Source: a virus. From it: 64,000 nt of DNA. Below, piece after piece: positions 4,268-64,000 of this stretch. The stretch is from IMG/VR virus record IMGVR_UViG_3300044949_002468, positions 1 to 64,000 of that record. One strand, 5' to 3'. The notes beneath the pieces were generated by a model. The model was given only the letters and a program-made list of their open reading frames with translations. It made no database searches and was not told where the DNA came from. The number at the start of each line of letters is the position of its first letter. Within the stretch, counting starts at the first letter, position 1. A program made the translations under genes and the position numbers.

Positions 4268-4515
4268 CTTGTCCCCAATGCGGGGGTCGCATGGAGCAAG
4301 GTCGCGCCGACCTTGGTTTGGCCGGATGCCTCTCCTGCGCGCAAGCCCGCCCCGTCACCCGCTATCGCGGCGCCATGATCTACGGACACAAGACTGCCGG
4401 TGCCGTCTGCCTCATGTCGCCTGACGAATTTTCCCGCTACAAAAAACTCACCAACCGAAAAGGACAATCCAGCGTCCTGCGCAACGTGCTGGTCGCCGCC
4501 GGGAGAGCCTTGTGA
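4264..4515 (+). CDS. Small zinc-ribbon protein
   Basis: An 83-residue protein with two CxxC knuckles near the N-terminus (CPQCGG at 3-8 and CLSC at 22-25), consistent with one bound zinc ion. The C-terminal part is basic. Such proteins act as nucleic-acid or protein adaptors in many phages; no specific role is evident. It directly precedes and overlaps radC by 4 bp. Confidence 0.8.
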   Translation: MTCPQCGGRMEQGRADLGLAGCLSCAQARPVTRYRGAMIYGHKTAGAVCLMSPDEFSRYKKLTNRKGQSSVLRNVLVAAGRAL

Positions 4516-5027
4516 AAAAACTAACCAGTAAATATCTCACCCACGCCAAACTCGTCACCATCCGAGCCTGCGAATCACCTGCCCCCAGCATCGGCACCCC
4601 CGAAAAAGTTCACGGCCTCTGGCAAGACCACGTGACCAAGACCGACTGGTATGAATCCCACCGCGAGCACTTCGTCCTATTCACCATGGACACCCGCTAT
4701 CGCGCCACCGGCTTATTCCTTATCTCCGTTGGCACATTATCCGAGACGCTGGTGCATCCGCGCGAGGTCATGCGCCCTGCCATCGTTGCCGGTGCCTATG
4801 GCATGGTCGTCGCTCACAATCACCCATCCGGTGACCCGACCCCCAGCGAAGCCGACCGATCCATGACGCGCAAGATCCGCGAGTGTGCCGACCTTTTCCA
4901 GATACAACTCCTCGATCACCTGATTGTCGGTGAGGCCGCCGTGACCAATGCGCCGGTGCCGAGGGGAGCGCCGGGGCAGCGATCCGTCCCGCCATACTTC
5001 AGCTTCAAAGAGCACGGGTTGATTTAG
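4512..5027 (+). CDS. radC: RadC-like JAB/JAMM metalloprotease-fold protein
   Basis: A 171-residue RadC-family protein. The zinc-binding JAMM signature HNHPSGD at about 102-108 continues as PTPSEAD, giving the H-x-H-x7-S-x2-D pattern of the family. The usual N-terminal helix-hairpin-helix region of chromosomal RadC (about 220 residues) is missing, as in many mobile-element copies. RadC-like proteins accompany phages, plasmids and anti-restriction genes; their biochemical role is unsettled, and a peptidase or isopeptidase activity is only inferred from the fold. The start at 4512 overlaps the previous stop (GTGA/ATG region). It ends a block of the operon before the next regulatory hairpin. Confidence 0.93.
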   Translation: MKKLTSKYLTHAKLVTIRACESPAPSIGTPEKVHGLWQDHVTKTDWYESHREHFVLFTMDTRYRATGLFLISVGTLSETLVHPREVMRPAIVAGAYGMVVAHNHPSGDPTPSEADRSMTRKIRECADLFQIQLLDHLIVGEAAVTNAPVPRGAPGQRSVPPYFSFKEHGLI

Positions 5028-5991: not shown

Positions 5992-6182
5992 ACTGCATCA
6001 TCCGGCGACTCCTGCAAGAAGCCGATATTCTCCTCACGGACGGCGAGAGCCTTACCTCTCTCGCCGTCCAATGGGGCGAGGACGATTCCACTTACCTCTG
6101 GGCCAGCCAAGTGCGCGCCCTTCTTCACCAAACCGCTTATGTCACACGTAGCGAAAATACAACTGCAAATCACCGACCTTGA
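5988..6182 (+). CDS. Small protein, unknown function
   Basis: A 64-residue protein starting at a GTG that overlaps the previous stop (GTGA). The helical sequence IIRRLLQEADILLTDGESLT has no recognised family. Its 3' end overlaps the following Ycf35-like gene by 44 bp, longer than usual here, so the last residues may be of little importance. Confidence 0.6.
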   Translation: MNCIIRRLLQEADILLTDGESLTSLAVQWGEDDSTYLWASQVRALLHQTAYVTRSENTTANHRP

Positions 6183-6576
6183 CGCCCTCGATGCGGCTTG
6201 CCGCGAACTGGGCCTTACCCTGACCCGCGACCAACGCACCTACCAATGGTTCGGCAGGCACGTGGGCGACTACCCGCTGCCCGATGGTTTTACCCAGCAT
6301 GACCTCGGACGCTGCGAGCACGCCATCAAAGTGCCAGGCACCACTTGGGAAATCGGCGTGGCCCGTGCTCGCGGCCACAACCACTACACCCTGCTCTTCG
6401 ACTTCTACGGCTCCCAAGGCCGACCGATCAGCAATGCCATCGGCGGCAACGAAGGCACCAAACTCAAACGAGCGTATGCCACCCAAGCCGCCATCCAACA
6501 AGCAAGAAAGCAAGGCTGGACCTACACCCGCCGCGACCTCAACGGCAAAACCAAGCTGACCATCAATGTCCCATAG
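6139..6576 (+). CDS. Ycf35-like protein (DUF1257)
   Basis: A 145-residue protein that opens with MSHVAKIQLQITDLDALDAA, the hallmark start of the Ycf35/DUF1257 family (usually MSH-x-x-x-I-x-T-x-I-x-D-x-x-x-L). The length also fits the family. Ycf35 proteins are encoded by cyanobacteria, red-algal plastids and some large phages; no biochemical function is established. A DUF2997-like gene and a Ycf46-like ATPase gene lie within 1.1 kb on the same strand, the companions expected for this family. The start is the conserved Met; it lies inside the end of the preceding frame. Confidence 0.85.
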   Translation: MSHVAKIQLQITDLDALDAACRELGLTLTRDQRTYQWFGRHVGDYPLPDGFTQHDLGRCEHAIKVPGTTWEIGVARARGHNHYTLLFDFYGSQGRPISNAIGGNEGTKLKRAYATQAAIQQARKQGWTYTRRDLNGKTKLTINVP

Positions 6577-6763
6577 CGACCAAGCCATCGAACAACACGA
6601 AGCCCGCGAAGCCTTAATCGCTGCGCTTCGTCAGTGTCTTGTCCCCTTGCAAGACGCCCAGAACAACATGCGATCCGCTCGCGCCGCCGAAGCCTTCGTT
6701 ACGGCCAAACGCGCCATCGCCACTGCTGAAGGATGGAATCCTGCCGGACCTTTTCCATCATGA
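6566..6763 (+). CDS. Small helical protein, unknown function
   Basis: A 65-residue, almost fully helical protein (LIAALRQCLVPLQDAQNNMR). It overlaps the Ycf35-like gene by 11 bp and the DUF2997-like gene by 4 bp, so it belongs to the same translation-coupled set. No family is recognised. Confidence 0.7.
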   Translation: MSHSDQAIEQHEAREALIAALRQCLVPLQDAQNNMRSARAAEAFVTAKRAIATAEGWNPAGPFPS

Positions 6764-6945
6764 AAACCATCGAAATCACCATCGACGCAGAGGGCAAGAC
6801 CATCGTGGAAGCAAACGGCTTCACCGGATCGTCCTGCACCGATGCCACCCAAGCCATCGAACGCGCCCTCGGCGCCGTCAGCCATGACACCAAAAAACCG
6901 GAATACTACCAAACCGCCCACGTTCAAGCACATCAACGTGCGTAA
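6760..6945 (+). CDS. DUF2997-like small protein
   Basis: A 61-residue protein. The sequence MKTIEITIDAEGKTIVEANG followed by FTGSSC and an acidic helix is the DUF2997 pattern (K-x-I-E-I-x-I, G-x-x-x-x-E-x-x-G-F-x-G-x-x-C-x-x-A). Members are small partners of DUF1257/Ycf35 genes in cyanobacteria and phages; function unknown. It sits between the Ycf35-like and Ycf46-like genes. The fold is probably beta-beta-alpha. Confidence 0.85.
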   Translation: MKTIEITIDAEGKTIVEANGFTGSSCTDATQAIERALGAVSHDTKKPEYYQTAHVQAHQRA

Positions 6946-7081
6946 TTACTGCGCGCGGTGCGGCGGCGAATTGCCCAAATATCCCGCCCTCTCCCGAAGA
7001 GACAACCACACCCGCATTTGTTCCGACTGCGGCTTCCTTGAAGCTATGGAGGACGCCGGAATGTCCATCCGCTACCCATGA
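6938..7081 (+). CDS. Small zinc-ribbon protein
   Basis: A 47-residue protein with CARCGG and CSDCG knuckles, enough for one zinc ion. I chose the GTG at 6938, which overlaps the DUF2997-like gene by 8 bp; an ATG at 6884 would add 18 residues but a 62-bp overlap. It ends with an ATGA overlap to the next gene. Function unknown. Confidence 0.65.
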   Translation: MRNYCARCGGELPKYPALSRRDNHTRICSDCGFLEAMEDAGMSIRYP

Positions 7082-7254
7082 AATTCCGCATTACGGCCAC
7101 CTACGAGACTTACTGCTACCTCGATGTCGAAGCCGACACCCTTGAGCAAGCCCTCGACACCGCCCACAACACCGACGGCGGGGATTGGACCAACATGGAC
7201 TACGGCGATTGGCACATCGACCAAGAACCTCAACACCTCAACACATCTCCATGA
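7078..7254 (+). CDS. Small protein, unknown function
   Basis: A 58-residue acidic protein (MKFRITATYETYCYLDVEAD). The strand-then-helix pattern VEADTLEQALDTAH is common in small phage proteins. Four-base overlaps on both sides support it. Function unknown. Confidence 0.7.
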   Translation: MKFRITATYETYCYLDVEADTLEQALDTAHNTDGGDWTNMDYGDWHIDQEPQHLNTSP

Positions 7255-7484
7255 CGCTAACCATCACCCATGAAGGGGACATCGTGACCCTCTACGATGA
7301 CCGCTTACATAAGTTGAGCCTCGGCCGCATGACCATGCGGCGCGCTTCCCACGTGGAATTCAACGCCGCCTCACAGGAATGGGAAGTCTCCCTCCCTGAC
7401 ACCTCCGGCGAAGTCATCTTTGCTCACCCCGACCGATCCACCTGCCTCGCATGGGAACGCGAATACTTCACCGAACGCTTATGA
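7251..7484 (+). CDS. Small protein, unknown function
   Basis: A 77-residue protein with a beta-rich start (MTLTITHEGDIVTLYDD). Its codons for His-Lys include the 10-mer CTTACATAAG found in the palindrome at 69-88; here it is coding. It overlaps both neighbours by 4 bp. No family is recognised. Confidence 0.7.
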   Translation: MTLTITHEGDIVTLYDDRLHKLSLGRMTMRRASHVEFNAASQEWEVSLPDTSGEVIFAHPDRSTCLAWEREYFTERL

Positions 7485-7678
7485 CCCTCGCCGCCATCGC
7501 CAAGAATCCGTGCCGCCATCCGGCGGTTCTTTTCCCCGAACGCTACCGCCAACGCATCTACGAGCTGATGCACCTTTACAGCTGCGATCACTCGGACGCC
7601 GAAGGCATCGCCGAAGTCGAATACTGCGAACTCGGCCACATCCCAAAACCATCTACCGATGAAATCCCGCATCATTAA
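7481..7678 (+). CDS. Small protein, unknown function
   Basis: A 65-residue protein starting with an ATGA overlap and ending 20 bp inside the ATPase gene. It contains two Cys and several His (HLYSCDHSDAEGIAEVEYCE), so metal binding is possible but not shown. Function unknown. Confidence 0.65.
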   Translation: MTLAAIAKNPCRHPAVLFPERYRQRIYELMHLYSCDHSDAEGIAEVEYCELGHIPKPSTDEIPHH

Positions 7679-9176
7679 CTACCTCAAAGCCGGTTATCCC
7701 GGCCTTGCCCTGCAATCGCACGAGGAGCACCGCTGCCAAGCCATGATCCGCTCGGTCGCCGCCGACCTCGAATACAACCTGTATTCATGGAGCATCACGA
7801 CCGGACGCACCGACGTAAATACCGGCGCAGGATTCGGCGAGGACGGCAACCCCATCGAAGTCTTCGACGGCATCATTGCCGCACCGGAGAAAAGCATTGT
7901 CCTGCTCAACGACTACCACCACTTCCTCGACCAGCCCAATCCGGTCATCTACCGCAAATTCAAGGAAGTGCTCTGGCACGCCAAAGCATCGCAAAAATGC
8001 ATCATCCTGCTCGCTCCGACCATCAAGCTGCCGCCCGACCTTGAAAAGCTGATCGTGTTGCTCGACTTCGAGCTACCCACCAGGGACGAGCTGACCAGCG
8101 TGATCGACACTTTATGTAAGTCGAACGACCGCCCGATGCCCGATGAGCAAACGCTGGGCAAGGTGCTCGATGCGCTCTCCGGCCTCACCACCACCGAAGC
8201 GGAGGATGCCCTCGCCCTCACCATCATCGAAACCGGCACCTTCGACACCAAGATCATCACCCGCGAGAAAGCTGCCGCCGTGAAGAAGAATGGCCTCCTC
8301 GAAATCATCGAACCCAAGCTGACCCTCGATGATGTCGGCGGCCTCGATGTCCTCAAAGCCGACCTCCTCTCCAAGCGCAAACTCTTCACGCCGGAAGCAC
8401 GGCGTGCCGGTGTCGAACCACCGCGCGGCTTTCTCTTCGTCGGCCAAGCGGGCACCGGCAAATCCCTCACCAGCCAAGTCTGCGGCAGCAACTTCGGCAT
8501 CCCGACCTTGCGCCTCGATGCGGGTAACATCTTCGCCTCCCTCGTCGGCGAATCCGAACGCAACTGGCGCACCGCCTTCGCCACGGCCAAAGCCATCGCC
8601 CCCTGCGTGTTCTGGATCGACGAGGTTGACGGCCTCACCTCCGGTGCCGCTTCCAGCGGCAAAACGGACGGCGGCACGACCAACCGCGTCTTCAAATCCA
8701 TCCTGCAGGATATGCAATACAACTCGCACGGGATCTTCTTCGTCTTCACCGCGAATGACATCGACGCCATCCCCGACCCGCTGATTGACCGCCTCAAAGT
8801 CTGGTCCGTCGAACTGCCCAATGCCGACGAACGCGAAGCCATCTGGCGCATCCACATCCCCAAGCTGCGCGAGGAGCAAACTGAGCCGTGGGACATCAAC
8901 AAGTTCGACCTTCCCACACTCTCCGCCGCCACCGAAGGCTTCTCCGGTCGCCAGATCGAAGACGCATGGCGCAAGGCCATCGAACTCGCCTTCAACGCCG
9001 GACGTGCGCCCGGCATGGTGGATTGCGTTGACGCACTCTCCGGCTTCACCCCAACCAGCGTCACCATGATCGAGCAGATCGAAGCCCGGCGCCGCCGCCT
9101 TGCCGGTAAAGCAACCAACGCCTCCACCCCCACGCCAACCAAAACTAACACCAACATCCGCAAACTCGCCGCATGA
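7659..9176 (+). CDS. Ycf46-like AAA+ ATPase
   Basis: A 505-residue AAA+ ATPase. Residues 1-200 form an N-terminal domain that begins as in Ycf46 (a Tyr-Pro segment, then HEEHRCQAM, where Ycf46 has a T-x-E-E-x-R). The AAA core has Walker A GQAGTGKS at 262-269, Walker B VFWIDEVD at 317-324, a sensor region FVFTAND near 361-367 and a candidate arginine finger in DRLK near 378. The lid domain follows to about 470, then a Thr/Lys-rich tail. The length equals plastid and cyanobacterial Ycf46. The family's substrate is unknown; as an AAA+ protein it probably remodels a protein complex, perhaps with the Ycf35 and DUF2997 partners encoded just upstream. Confidence 0.92.
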   Translation: MKSRIINYLKAGYPGLALQSHEEHRCQAMIRSVAADLEYNLYSWSITTGRTDVNTGAGFGEDGNPIEVFDGIIAAPEKSIVLLNDYHHFLDQPNPVIYRKFKEVLWHAKASQKCIILLAPTIKLPPDLEKLIVLLDFELPTRDELTSVIDTLCKSNDRPMPDEQTLGKVLDALSGLTTTEAEDALALTIIETGTFDTKIITREKAAAVKKNGLLEIIEPKLTLDDVGGLDVLKADLLSKRKLFTPEARRAGVEPPRGFLFVGQAGTGKSLTSQVCGSNFGIPTLRLDAGNIFASLVGESERNWRTAFATAKAIAPCVFWIDEVDGLTSGAASSGKTDGGTTNRVFKSILQDMQYNSHGIFFVFTANDIDAIPDPLIDRLKVWSVELPNADEREAIWRIHIPKLREEQTEPWDINKFDLPTLSAATEGFSGRQIEDAWRKAIELAFNAGRAPGMVDCVDALSGFTPTSVTMIEQIEARRRRLAGKATNASTPTPTKTNTNIRKLAA

Positions 9177-9358
9177 AGAACTTCACCGTCTTTACGATCT
9201 TCTTCGCCGCTTCTTGGTTCCTCGGAGCCACACCCATCATCATCGGCGTCTTCCTCGTCTATGGCATCGCGTGGCTTCTTGCTCGCAACAGCCGACCAGC
9301 GCCTCCAAGCCCGCCGCCGCCAACCTTCGGCAATGGCTCACGCAAACTGCATTTATGA
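9173..9358 (+). CDS. Small membrane protein
   Basis: A 61-residue protein with one or two hydrophobic helices at residues 3-35 (FTVFTIFFAASWFLG and IIIGVFLVYGIAWLL) and a Pro-rich cytoplasmic-type tail. It overlaps the ATPase stop and the next start by 4 bp. It could anchor the ATPase at the membrane, but that is only suggested by position. Confidence 0.75.
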   Translation: MKNFTVFTIFFAASWFLGATPIIIGVFLVYGIAWLLARNSRPAPPSPPPPTFGNGSRKLHL

Positions 9359-15083: not shown

Positions 15084-15698
15084 ATGACCCTCCCCTCCTA
15101 CCCAGCCCGCCCCATCAACGGCGGGCCGTTGGAGCGGGCGCGCCCTAAATCGGGGCATTGGACTTACGAACCCAAGCTGAACGGCTGGCGCGCGTTAGTC
15201 CATGCCCCGACCGGGCGCATGTGGAACCGGCACGGCGAGAGGCTGTCTATCGAAGACTGCTTCAAGCCGGTGCTGGACACGCTCGCCAAAGCCGACGTTC
15301 CCGAATGGCTCGACTGCGAAGCCTTGGAACGCCGCCTCAACCTCGGACGCGGCAGCCTCGTCGTATTCGACTACATCCCGTCCGGAACGGACCGGATCAC
15401 CCCCTACGACAAGCGCAAAGCCAAACTGGAGGCCGCCATGAAAACTCTGCCCAACTGGCAGCCGTGGCAATTCGGTCCTCCGGTGCAATGCGCCGTCTAC
15501 ACCATAGAAGGCGTCGTGCCTTACGAGAGTGACCAGCTCGACGAACTCTATCTTCACCTCAAATCCGAAAACCAAGCCCTTGATGCCGATCTCTACGAAG
15601 GACTCGTCGCCAAGCGCACCAACTCACCCTACCCCGTCCAACAACGCTCGTCCTCCGAAGAAACCACCTTCTGGGTCAAGCATCGCTGGGCATTCTAA
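15084..15698 (+). CDS. Minimal ATP-dependent DNA ligase-like protein
   Basis: A 204-residue nucleotidyltransferase of the ATP ligase family. Motif I is YEPKLNGWR with the adenylated lysine at 31, motif III is LDCEAL near 76-81, motif IIIa is VVFDY near 93-97, motif IV is YEGLVAKR at 171-178, and motif V is WVKHR at 197-201. These motifs make up the adenylation domain, and the protein stops right after motif V, so the usual OB-fold domain is absent. That is shorter than typical phage ligases of about 300-480 residues. It may seal nicks with help from another protein or act on a special substrate; RNA ligase activity cannot be excluded. Confidence 0.88.
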   Translation: MTLPSYPARPINGGPLERARPKSGHWTYEPKLNGWRALVHAPTGRMWNRHGERLSIEDCFKPVLDTLAKADVPEWLDCEALERRLNLGRGSLVVFDYIPSGTDRITPYDKRKAKLEAAMKTLPNWQPWQFGPPVQCAVYTIEGVVPYESDQLDELYLHLKSENQALDADLYEGLVAKRTNSPYPVQQRSSSEETTFWVKHRWAF

Positions 15699-17636: not shown

Positions 17637-18383
17637 ATGAGCAAAATAACCAAATTGGTTATCCCAACGACCGCGCCGAGTCCTGCGCGCTCCACCAAGT
17701 GGAACAAAGGCCTCACACTGCAATCCGCCGACCTCCTCGAACCGATGAGCGCGGCTTCCAACGACACCACCCGCTATGTCCTCAACGGCATCTGCTTCGA
17801 CCAGGACAGCATTATCGGCACCGATGGGCGGCGCCTCCTCCGCATCGTGCATGACGTTACCCCGCTCATGCACGGCAAGGAACCGACCATCCTGCCGAAC
17901 GACAAGCAAACAGTCCGATTCATCAAGGATGCTCCGATGCTCCGCATCCAGTTATCCACCGATGGACAATGGTTCAAACTCACCGCCTTTGGCCGTGAGC
18001 ACTGCGTCAAAAAAGTCGCGGGCCAATACCCCAACTGGCGCCAAGTCCTGCCGGATTCCAAAAATCGCTGGCACCTGACGTTCGACAGTGAGCAAGTGGC
18101 CAAGGTGCTGCGCGACTTGCCGGTGGACAAGAAGGAACCCGCCGCGACCATCGAATTCCGCGATGGTTACAGTAAGGCAACTGTGGGCAAGACCAGCGTG
18201 CTGTTCCACTGTGTCGGCAACGCTGCCGCGACCATCCGGCTCAACGCAATCATGCTTGCCCAAGCGGTCAAACAGGGGTTTGCTACCGCTTACCTCAACA
18301 TGGACAAGCTCGAAGAACCCGTTCTCTTCACCAAGGCGAACGCCGCATACGTGCAAATGCCGATGGTGATGAAAGCATCATGA
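17637..18383 (+). CDS. dnaN: Short DnaN-like sliding clamp
   Basis: A 248-residue protein related to the bacterial polymerase III beta clamp. TRYVLNGICFDQDSIIGTDG followed by RRLLRI (about 45-70) is the typical DnaN repeat element with the T-D-G-x-R-L signature, and KVAGQYPNWRQVLP (about 126-139) matches the clamp G-x-[FY]-P-x-[WY] element. Host clamps have about 366 residues in three domains, so this is about two thirds of that length and may assemble differently. It would tether a polymerase to DNA; no DNA polymerase is encoded in the window, so the host enzyme is the likely client. ATG at 17637, followed by a coupled small gene. Confidence 0.82.
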   Translation: MSKITKLVIPTTAPSPARSTKWNKGLTLQSADLLEPMSAASNDTTRYVLNGICFDQDSIIGTDGRRLLRIVHDVTPLMHGKEPTILPNDKQTVRFIKDAPMLRIQLSTDGQWFKLTAFGREHCVKKVAGQYPNWRQVLPDSKNRWHLTFDSEQVAKVLRDLPVDKKEPAATIEFRDGYSKATVGKTSVLFHCVGNAAATIRLNAIMLAQAVKQGFATAYLNMDKLEEPVLFTKANAAYVQMPMVMKAS

Positions 18384-27269: not shown

Positions 27270-28373
27270 ATGGCCTTCCTGCGGAAAAAGCCCCGCTCCC
27301 CCTACTGGTTTCTGCGCTCCCGCGATCCGGACACCGGCGAGTTGCGCGAGGAATCGACCAAGCTGCGCCATGACAATTTCGAGCAGACGCGCACGGCCCG
27401 GCGCCAAGCGGAGAAGGCCACGCACGATGAAGCACGCTTTGCCACCGCGGACGGGCCGCGCGACGCCGCGCACTTCTCTCATTGGGTCGCCACCTACATC
27501 GCCTCGCACTACCAGCGCGGAGCCAGCCTGCGCCGCTATCAAGTCGCTTGGGCCAACCTCTGCGTCTTTCTGACCGAACACAACTTGCGCCACCCGCGCC
27601 AGATCCGCTACGAGCACGCCGCCGAATACGTGGCGTGGCGACTGAAGCTGGGCATCAGCAGAAACACCGCGCGGCTCGAGGTGAAGTTCTTCGCCTTTAT
27701 CATGGCCGAGGCCATCCGGCGCGAATACTGCGAGCGCAACGCGATTGCCTTGGCCCGCGTGCCGCGCTCGCCCGTCGTGCCCCGCCCCGACCTCGATGCC
27801 GATGACCTCGCCCGCGCCCGCGCCATCTTCGTCAATCGCCCGAAATGGATGCGCACCGTTTTTGAAATTCAAGCCCACTTGGGTTGTCGCTTTTCGGAAA
27901 CGTCCATTCCCTTCGCCCACATCGACTTTGACCGTGGCATTATCCACCTCACCGATTCCAAGCGGCCCGACGACGACCCGCGCAAACTTTACGCCGTGCC
28001 CCTGCCCGAGAGCCTGCGCCCCTACCTCCTCGCGCTCAAGGAATCCGGCGCAGAACGCACCGTCCACGTTCTGAGCGGCGACGACAACCGCTGTTTCAAT
28101 ATCTACCTCAAGGCCGCGACCGGAGCGACCAGCCACAGCCTGCGCGTGGCCTTCATCTCCCGCTGCCATCGCGCGGGGCTCTCCGAGATGCAGGCGATGA
28201 GGTTGGTCAATCATAGCTCGCAGCTTGTTCACCGCATTTATTCACGCTTGTCGGTGGAGGATATGCGCTCGGCCATGGAGAAACTTCCGGCGGTCTTGCC
28301 CCCACCGCCCGTGCCTGCTCCGGGGTCGCCCCCGCGCGGTCATTCAAAAAATCCCTCACCCAGCGCAAGGTAG
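27270..28373 (+). CDS. int: Tyrosine recombinase (phage integrase)
   Basis: A 367-residue site-specific recombinase that would insert and excise the phage genome. The N-terminal core-binding SAM-like domain spans about 65-165. The catalytic residues are present: R207 in LGCRFSE, a Lys near 231 in TDSKR, H289 and R292 in SHSLR, H315 in VNHSS, and the nucleophile Y324 in RIYSRL. The C-terminal 30 residues are Pro-rich and overlap a gene on the opposite strand. It starts 10 bp after the last GTGACAC repeat, so its own binding may control it. Confidence 0.95.
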   Translation: MAFLRKKPRSPYWFLRSRDPDTGELREESTKLRHDNFEQTRTARRQAEKATHDEARFATADGPRDAAHFSHWVATYIASHYQRGASLRRYQVAWANLCVFLTEHNLRHPRQIRYEHAAEYVAWRLKLGISRNTARLEVKFFAFIMAEAIRREYCERNAIALARVPRSPVVPRPDLDADDLARARAIFVNRPKWMRTVFEIQAHLGCRFSETSIPFAHIDFDRGIIHLTDSKRPDDDPRKLYAVPLPESLRPYLLALKESGAERTVHVLSGDDNRCFNIYLKAATGATSHSLRVAFISRCHRAGLSEMQAMRLVNHSSQLVHRIYSRLSVEDMRSAMEKLPAVLPPPPVPAPGSPPRGHSKNPSPSAR

Positions 28374-63762: not shown

Positions 63763-64000
63763 GAGATCAGCTTCAACACCTCCCGCACCACCCGCGCCGG
63801 TTCCAAAGTTCCCAGCGCCTCGCACTTGCCGGTGATCGAACACGGCCCATCCGGCGGATACGCACCGCCGCGCCCGTGCCAGTAGCACGGCGCACAACTC
63901 AATGCCCCCTGCAACGCACGGACGGTCGGCGCATACGCCGTGCGCGCCTGCCACGGAAACGATCCGTAAAGAGCCACGGTCGGCAGCCGGAGCGCCCCCG
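63759..64000 (-). CDS. GT9-type glycosyltransferase, C-terminal part only
   Basis: The frame is open to the right edge, so this is the end of a longer gene (about 80 residues visible). ALRLPTVALYGSFPWQARTA is the classic GT9 (heptosyltransferase) C-terminal P-T-V-x-[LIF]-[YF]-G motif, and the C-x-x-C-near-W, then GPCSITGKCEALG pattern and final EPARVVREVLK helix fit the sugar-nucleotide domain end. GT9 enzymes transfer heptose or related sugars to lipopolysaccharide or glycans. With FkbM and DUF5672-type genes it forms a glycan cassette. Confidence 0.82.
   Translation of the reverse strand, partial: GALRLPTVALYGSFPWQARTAYAPTVRALQGALSCAPCYWHGRGGAYPPDGPCSITGKCEALGTLEPARVVREVLKLIS

Follow-up and report, generated by a model that had tools for sequence, protein, structure and literature searches.

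A Ycf46-type ATPase, DUF1257 and DUF2997 gene set in a phage as the candidate version of a widespread module

IMG/VR virus record IMGVR_UViG_3300044949_002468, of which we analyzed 64,000 of the 66,249 bases (the window), carries in one segment the genes of a Ycf46-type AAA ATPase, a DUF1257 (Ycf35-type) protein and a DUF2997 protein, accompanied by a fourth family of small proteins, S4. We give a probability of about one half to the reading that this segment represents a conserved module in its phage form, in which a p97-like remodeling ATPase would act with the dedicated partners DUF1257 and DUF2997, and which would be used early or in replication. The trio genes are present, each as a single match, and are under purifying selection. 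Specifically, comparison with the two nearest contigs (L002 and L003) gave ratios of non-synonymous to synonymous substitution rates of 0.09–0.29 for the ATPase, 0.10–0.13 for DUF1257 and 0.09 for S4, and 0.32–0.56 for the short DUF2997.

That the three genes lie together in one segment had been proposed in a preliminary description made from the letters alone, and Pfam, PHROG and leave-out profiles agree on this point. DUF2997 exceeded the Pfam curated score (PF11211, E = 6.7e-17; 61.5 bits versus 24.1) and the AAA domain also passed its cut-off (PF00004, E = 6e-22), with a weak match to AAA_lid_3, whereas DUF1257 taken alone fell below the curated score (PF06868, E = 0.022; 15.4 bits versus 22.2), its family being shown by the leave-out profile. 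Almost the entire ATPase was covered by a match to phrog_8638 (E = 2.6e-90). Because the profiles were partly trained on the very loci that they count, leave-out and decoy checks were run. Profiles from which the window and its close relatives had been excluded each matched one of the 1089 open reading frames (ORFs) of the window (DUF1257, E = 1.1e-33; DUF2997, E = 1.6e-26; S4, E = 1.6e-11), and reversed-sequence decoys gave no match below 1e-3. Profiles built from cellular proteins alone still found DUF1257 (E = 7e-5) and DUF2997 (E = 1.5e-17) in the window. In addition, the window DUF1257 is tied by profile to proteins that pass the PF06868 cut-off: the profile set holds L139/L124, near relatives of L126, a protein of the same family that passes with E = 1.4e-29.

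The window ATPase has the Ycf46-type layout, with an N-terminal domain lacking Walker A (a motif search found no GxxxxGK[ST] in residues 1–220), then one classic AAA domain and a lid. The latter domain carries Walker A (GQAGTGKS) at residue 262, a pore loop (SLVGESE) near 294, Walker B (WIDEVD) near 319 and sensor 1 (TAND). Among solved proteins, the ATPase comes closest in sequence to the Cdc48/p97 D2 domains (E = 1.7e-39), and a modeled sister ATPase could be superposed on p97 D1–D2 (Z = 18.5, 407 residues). In view of these D2 relatives and the superposition of the sister model on both p97 rings, we read the ATPase as a probable p97-like machine, in which the first ring would be structural and the second would do the work. 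The tandem AAA architecture and D2-type sequence are shared with the type II classic AAA proteins p97/Cdc48; in contrast to these, the first AAA domain lacks Walker A and the p97 N-domain is absent. With its single Walker A, the protein scores 77.9 bits against the p97/Cdc48 model TIGR01243, versus a cut-off of 802.65. The preliminary description had envisaged a self-standing AAA+ machine, and the intact Walker A, Walker B and pore-loop motifs, the dedicated partners and their co-evolution with the ATPase argue for such a machine.

DUF2997 is characterized by a G-x-x-G-x-x-C motif whose cysteine is kept in 124 of 124 phage and cellular sequences. This invariance makes a nucleophile, ligand or carrier residue likely, and the cysteine is probably an active or ligand residue. 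Sequence searches of the PDB with DUF2997 and DUF1257 returned no usable relative. The AlphaFold2 model of DUF1257 is confident (predicted local distance difference test score, pLDDT, 92); against the PDB, Foldseek gave a best E of 0.16 and VIA-align a best Z of 4.8, mostly to KA1 domains of kinases and to METTL16, too weak to use, and a search of BFVD gave one clear match, A0A7S5REL3. S4 joins the trio in phages and Verrucomicrobiota: among the matches listed, a scope that holds for all counts of viral and cellular loci given here, all 39 viral loci that have S4 hold DUF1257 and DUF2997 as well. Direct comparison showed DUF1257 and DUF2997 to be unrelated. For S4 and DUF2997 it gave a probability of 86% (E = 4.7e-6), but S4 is without the conserved cysteine, and we do not claim a relationship.

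The three families recur together in other phages. IMG/VR was scanned twice by the ATPase alone, giving overlapping sets of 60 and 54 contigs in which the ATPase was clear; flanks of 6–8 kb were fetched, and partners lying further away were missed. Both partners occurred in the fetched flank of 28 of the 60 and 33 of the 54 contigs, and S4 in 21 and 18, respectively. Since the counts are of the matches listed and the scans were seeded with trio-bearing phages, these fractions are not population frequencies. Co-occurrence within ~4 kb, on which the preliminary description had staked its proposal, was found in six phage isolates that are unrelated to one another: Aeromonas HJ05, Rhizobium RHph_I4, L338C, Rhodobacter RcTiptonus, Agrobacterium JP1 and the acidobacterial Tunturi_3. 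As in the window, only a few kb span the ATPase, DUF1257, DUF2997 and S4 in HJ05, RHph_I4, RcTiptonus and JP1, and the RHph_I4 genes are already annotated as DUF1257 and DUF2997. These four phages differ from the window in that the ATPase comes first and an extra protein of 208–243 residues lies between ATPase and DUF1257, and their ATPases are 28–32% identical to that of the window. A radical-SAM gene accompanies DUF2997 and DUF1257 in 3 of 114 phage loci, lying next to them or between them as it does in bacteria; one more contig (L040) carries such a gene at its edge.

A similar scan of bacterial and archaeal genomes, again by the ATPase alone, gave 80 loci, of which 59 hold DUF2997, 59 DUF1257 and 48 both. 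A radical-SAM protein of ~200 residues (PF13353, E = 1.6e-32), nearest to NrdG yet below the NrdG cut-off, is present in 49, and a membrane protein with a C-terminal helix-hairpin-helix domain in 26. The groups comprise Bacillota, Actinomycetota, Spirochaetota, Gastranaerophilales (Melainabacteria), Verrucomicrobiota and archaea; Paenibacillus, Bacillus, Clostridium, Sporomusa, Treponema, Microbacterium, Gastranaerophilales, Sulfurovum, Chloroflexota and methanogens are among the hosts. The genes are not always arranged alike, the order ranging from DUF1257–AAA–DUF2997–radical-SAM in Sporomusa to radical-SAM–AAA–DUF1257–DUF2997 in Gastranaerophilales, which favors functional linkage over one inherited block. 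Cellular DUF1257 is broader than the Pfam model and frequently has a hydrophobic N-terminal stretch; its profile matches that of phage DUF1257 with a probability of 99.2 (E = 5.9e-20). The cellular operon resembles the phage set in the trio itself, the tight overlaps and the co-evolution, and differs in its NrdG-like radical-SAM protein, its frequent helix-hairpin-helix membrane protein and its lack of S4. As to the surroundings, a WD40-repeat protein and an MreB/Hsp70-like protein are encoded just upstream of the Sporomusa module (L124:4124-7576), and in Gastranaerophilales-type genomes (L095, L096, L109, L117 and L118) the module immediately precedes the ATP-synthase operon.

In cyanobacteria, DUF2997 was found in 34 of 59 sampled genomes. 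A 4Fe-4S ferredoxin follows DUF2997–DUF1257 in Pseudanabaena and Chroococcus, as the ferredoxin fed7 follows the pair in the Synechocystis cluster duf2997-ycf35-fed7 (PMC4284462), and the ATPase adjoins DUF1257 in Pseudanabaena and Nodosilinea. The phage set shares with the cyanobacterial and plastid genes the three families and the placement of DUF2997 beside DUF1257, and differs in having all three together with S4 and no ferredoxin. DUF2997 appears sporadic outside cyanobacteria, insofar as Pfam found it in none of 100 sampled Bacillota genomes besides the starting one. The characterization of the three families as companions in cyanobacteria and red-algal plastids holds for the cyanobacterial linkage and is otherwise too narrow, the module also occurring in many bacteria and in archaea, usually with a radical-SAM protein. 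The open-access papers searched contain no account of the module. A physiological study of Ycf46 in Synechocystis has reportedly been made.

The three proteins co-evolve: their distances correlate in the viral normal-order set (r = 0.47–0.60) and in cells (r = 0.71–0.92, the highest value being that of ATPase and DUF2997), with a Mantel p of 0.0005 in every group. In a quick ATPase tree whose midpoint root is arbitrary, the phage ATPases fall on one side (Shimodaira–Hasegawa-like approximate likelihood ratio test support 95). The window ATPase is ~35% identical to a cyanobacterial ATPase over 95% of its length, on a separate branch, and the existence of a phage clade of its own argues against recent theft from cyanobacteria. 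Nested within the window's subclade (support 100) are seven Verrucomicrobiota-type copies and one from Lentisphaerota. Verrucomicrobiota and Lentisphaerota carry phage-type module copies with S4 (L093, L130, L145, L148, L152, L154 and L159), their ATPases are 37–44% identical to that of the window, and some genomes have several ATPase copies. Several of these copies are accompanied by RadC, S4 and a beta-clamp-like gene, and the Lentisphaerota copy is also near a tyrosine integrase. The clamp-like proteins (L152:10243-11796 and L154:396-1958), which share neighborhoods with the module and weakly match the DNA polymerase III beta (sliding clamp) domain, are resembled by a window protein (17637-18383). 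Overall, the phage branch appears old and appears to have given genes to, or to share mobile elements with, Verrucomicrobiota and Lentisphaerota, whose copies also offer a hint of the phage host range. The idea that the phage could give a route to the function of the plastid genes stands in part: the phage set is real, and, because its clade is distinct from the cyanobacterial one, function could be carried over to plastids by inference only.

In a branch of at least 29 sister phage ATPases, Walker A is preceded by the Walker B strand and the helix that follows that strand; the core of the window ATPase is in normal order. The normal-core profile matches 28 of the 29 in the block order 100–139, 40–98, 141–275 of the model, and did not report the first-block match for the 29th. 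In 147 normal proteins, Walker B stands at +54 to +60 residues from Walker A, almost always at 55; in 30 proteins classed as permuted by a motif rule, the distance is –42 to –49. The permuted ATPases form one clade (support 100), in which L078 and L168 are also permuted by the motif rule. The AlphaFold2 model of a permuted ATPase (pLDDT 89) has strands in the permuted order b3-a3-b1-a1-b2-a2-b4, and the domain model superposes on p97 D2 (Z = 16.7, 2.5 Å, 203 residues). Many permuted ATPases are accompanied by DUF1257, DUF2997 and S4, and 24 of 42 permuted-type loci hold both DUF1257 and DUF2997. No description of a permuted AAA+ core was found in the open-access papers searched.

How such a module could work may be sketched as follows. 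As judged from sequence, the engine would consist of two stacked domains, an N-terminal AAA-like one in which Walker A has been lost and a single active one of the classic AAA kind; the ATPase would form a ring and pull on, or remodel, a protein through its pore. As constant companions of the ATPase, DUF1257 and DUF2997 may be adaptors or cofactors that choose or prepare the client, and DUF2997 may do so by presenting its invariant cysteine. In cells, the set would work with an iron–sulfur protein, either the NrdG-like radical-SAM enzyme or ferredoxin, and these neighbors suggest redox or radical chemistry on the DUF2997 cysteine or on the client. In phages, the iron–sulfur slot would be mostly empty, with S4 added instead; since most phages have no such partner, the ATPase–DUF1257–DUF2997 core would work without it or use that of the host. 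The phage would most likely use the module early, for remodeling a protein complex in takeover or genome replication.

Several observations weigh against this reading. The arginine-finger region of the window ATPase reads PLIDRLKVW versus the usual LLRKGRxDE, and the DUF1257 model has no confident match among solved folds, such that an adaptor fold is not recognized. Furthermore, about half of the ATPase-bearing viral contigs have neither partner in the fetched flank, and Mycobacterium phage Dylan (Corndog-type) has the ATPase with DUF2997 nowhere in its record, from which it follows that the ATPase can act without the partners. Conversely, in the T4-like cyanophages P-SSM7, AG-345-E02 and AG-345-E15, DUF2997 overlaps DUF1257 (near a DNA polymerase gene in the latter two) with no Ycf46-type ATPase in the record; these phages may borrow the host Ycf46.

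Like the photosynthesis genes of cyanophages, the set could consist of auxiliary metabolic genes, host-derived and tuning host energy or redox metabolism. The pairs in the three cyanophages, that of P-SSM7 lying near psbA, hli and ferredoxin genes, and the iron–sulfur partners in cells are consistent with such a role. We nevertheless consider it improbable: neither the window phage nor the other module-bearing isolated phages are cyanophages, the Verrucomicrobial ATPases are nested inside the phage clade and not the reverse, and the radical-SAM partner is scarce in phages, as counted above. A replication or recombination accessory, whose ATPase would remodel replisome or repair proteins, is suggested by the position of the set, which immediately precedes genes for DnaB and/or DNA polymerase I in four of the six isolated phages (RHph_I4, L338C, RcTiptonus and JP1), and by the RadC and beta-clamp-like genes that accompany it in the window and in Verrucomicrobiota. 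This evidence is one of gene position only, and cellular copies occupy ordinary neighborhoods, such as that beside the ATP-synthase operon in Gastranaerophilales, making this role unlikely as well. Finally, the AAA domain, which like that of the antiphage ATPase IetA is of the classic clade, is weakly similar to IetA models (PADLOC E = 4.9e-19; NCBIfam 64 bits), raising the prospect of a defense or counter-defense device related to IetA/IetAS. However, the score falls far short of the NF042959 cut-off (510 bits), the similarity is confined to the AAA domain, the N-terminus and partners differ from those of IetA, DUF1257 and DUF2997 match no PADLOC model, and no protease partner is present among the neighbors scanned; we regard a defense function as very unlikely.

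The window also encodes terminase, portal, head and primase genes, and an integrase-like gene (PF13102, E = 1.3e-5, above cut-off; PF00589 below cut-off) makes it reasonable to call the phage temperate, as had been proposed. Nine ORFs, from DUF1257 through a hydrophobic ORF, each overlap their neighbors (Table 1), the DUF2997 start having been corrected to the ATG that forms an ATGA overlap with the preceding stop. Not all of them belong to the module. Two zinc ribbons had been described nearby, of which one lies inside the segment and the other upstream; the former is without relatives in the fetched loci and does not qualify as a component. Similarly, the membrane protein gene does directly follow the ATPase as described, and its lack of relatives in any fetched locus, the nearest contigs included, speaks against a part in the machine. 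Two further small ORFs (6566-6763 and 7078-7254) were rejected as module parts for want of relatives in any fetched locus. The protein between S4 and the ATPase is 62–79% identical to its L002/L003 counterparts, with no wider relatives found. The 291-residue protein upstream of the module (88–89% identical in L002/L003) has no PHROG match and sub-threshold Pfam matches only; as a candidate counterpart of the 208–243-residue protein of the other phages, it showed no similarity in an all-against-all comparison. The RadC-like JAB protein also adjoins the module in Verrucomicrobiota and Lentisphaerota. Elsewhere in the window, positions 15084-15698 weakly match an ATP-dependent DNA ligase domain (PF01068, E = 7.8e-5, below cut-off), ARAGORN called a tRNA-Ser at 63844-63922 (– strand) whose anticodon, 'act', is unusual, so that the call may be false or the tRNA degenerate, and an Rfam search gave no match.

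Table 1. Features of the window and module-related loci in other genomes.
Feature	Position or locus	Strand	Basis or remark
Second zinc-ribbon-like gene, upstream of segment	4264-4515		
RadC-like JAB protein	4512..5027	+	PF04002, E = 1.2e-33
291-residue protein upstream of module, specific to this phage group	5116..5991	+	L002/L003
DUF1257/Ycf35-type protein, 145 residues	6139..6576	+	Leave-out profile and AlphaFold2 model
Small ORF between DUF1257 and DUF2997, outside conserved module	6566..6763	+	No relative in fetched loci
DUF2997 protein, 61 residues, GFTGSSC with invariant Cys	6760..6945	+	Pfam
Zinc-ribbon-like ORF, CxxC-x(n)-CxxC, GTG start, outside conserved module	6938..7081	+	Sequence
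Small ORF, outside conserved module	7078..7254	+	No relative in fetched loci
S4, fourth-family small protein, 77 residues	7251..7484	+	Leave-out profile
Small protein between S4 and ATPase, overlapping both	7481..7678	+	Two nearest contigs only
Ycf46-type AAA ATPase, 505 residues	7659..9176	+	Pfam, PHROG, motifs
Hydrophobic (membrane) protein, 61 residues, overlaps ATPase stop	9173..9358	+	Outside conserved module
Tyrosine-integrase-like protein	27270..28373	+	PF13102, PF00589
Permuted ATPases	L008:3879-5471, L064, L066:6863-8353, L067, L068, L069, L071, L072, L073:6647-8107		
Permuted ATPases, further loci	L164, L169, L170, L172-L178, L182, L183, L185-L191, L214, L217		
DUF2997–DUF1257 pairs of T4-like cyanophages	L009:5977-6529, L010:5989-6538, L011:5989-6544		
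Phage radical-SAM gene next to DUF2997 and DUF1257 or between them	L033:9449-10099, L063:9488-10102, L198:10568-11347		
Cellular operon loci (included)	L084, L088-L092, L095-L096, L104-L107, L115-L118, L124-L128, L144, L161		

Taken further, the idea of a conserved module would extend to an undescribed protein-processing pathway that phages have in common with bacteria, archaea and plastids. In this pathway DUF2997, as a small carrier bearing the invariant cysteine, and DUF1257 would feed a client to a p97-like unfoldase, radical-SAM or ferredoxin proteins would charge or serve it in cells, and one phage branch would have the first permuted AAA+ topology, with the Walker B segment ahead of Walker A; we offer this tentatively, as a possibility with the odds against it. 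Ycf35 and Ycf46 are conserved, function-undefined genes of cyanobacteria and algal plastids, a long-standing gap, and the occurrence of the module outside photosynthesis, beside radical-SAM or ferredoxin proteins, means that its job can be studied far from photosynthesis. The tractable Rhodobacter, Rhizobium and Aeromonas phages with a compact module provide concrete test systems, and the invariant DUF2997 cysteine provides a single testable residue. The permuted core, if confirmed by structure, would represent a new way of building an AAA+ machine.

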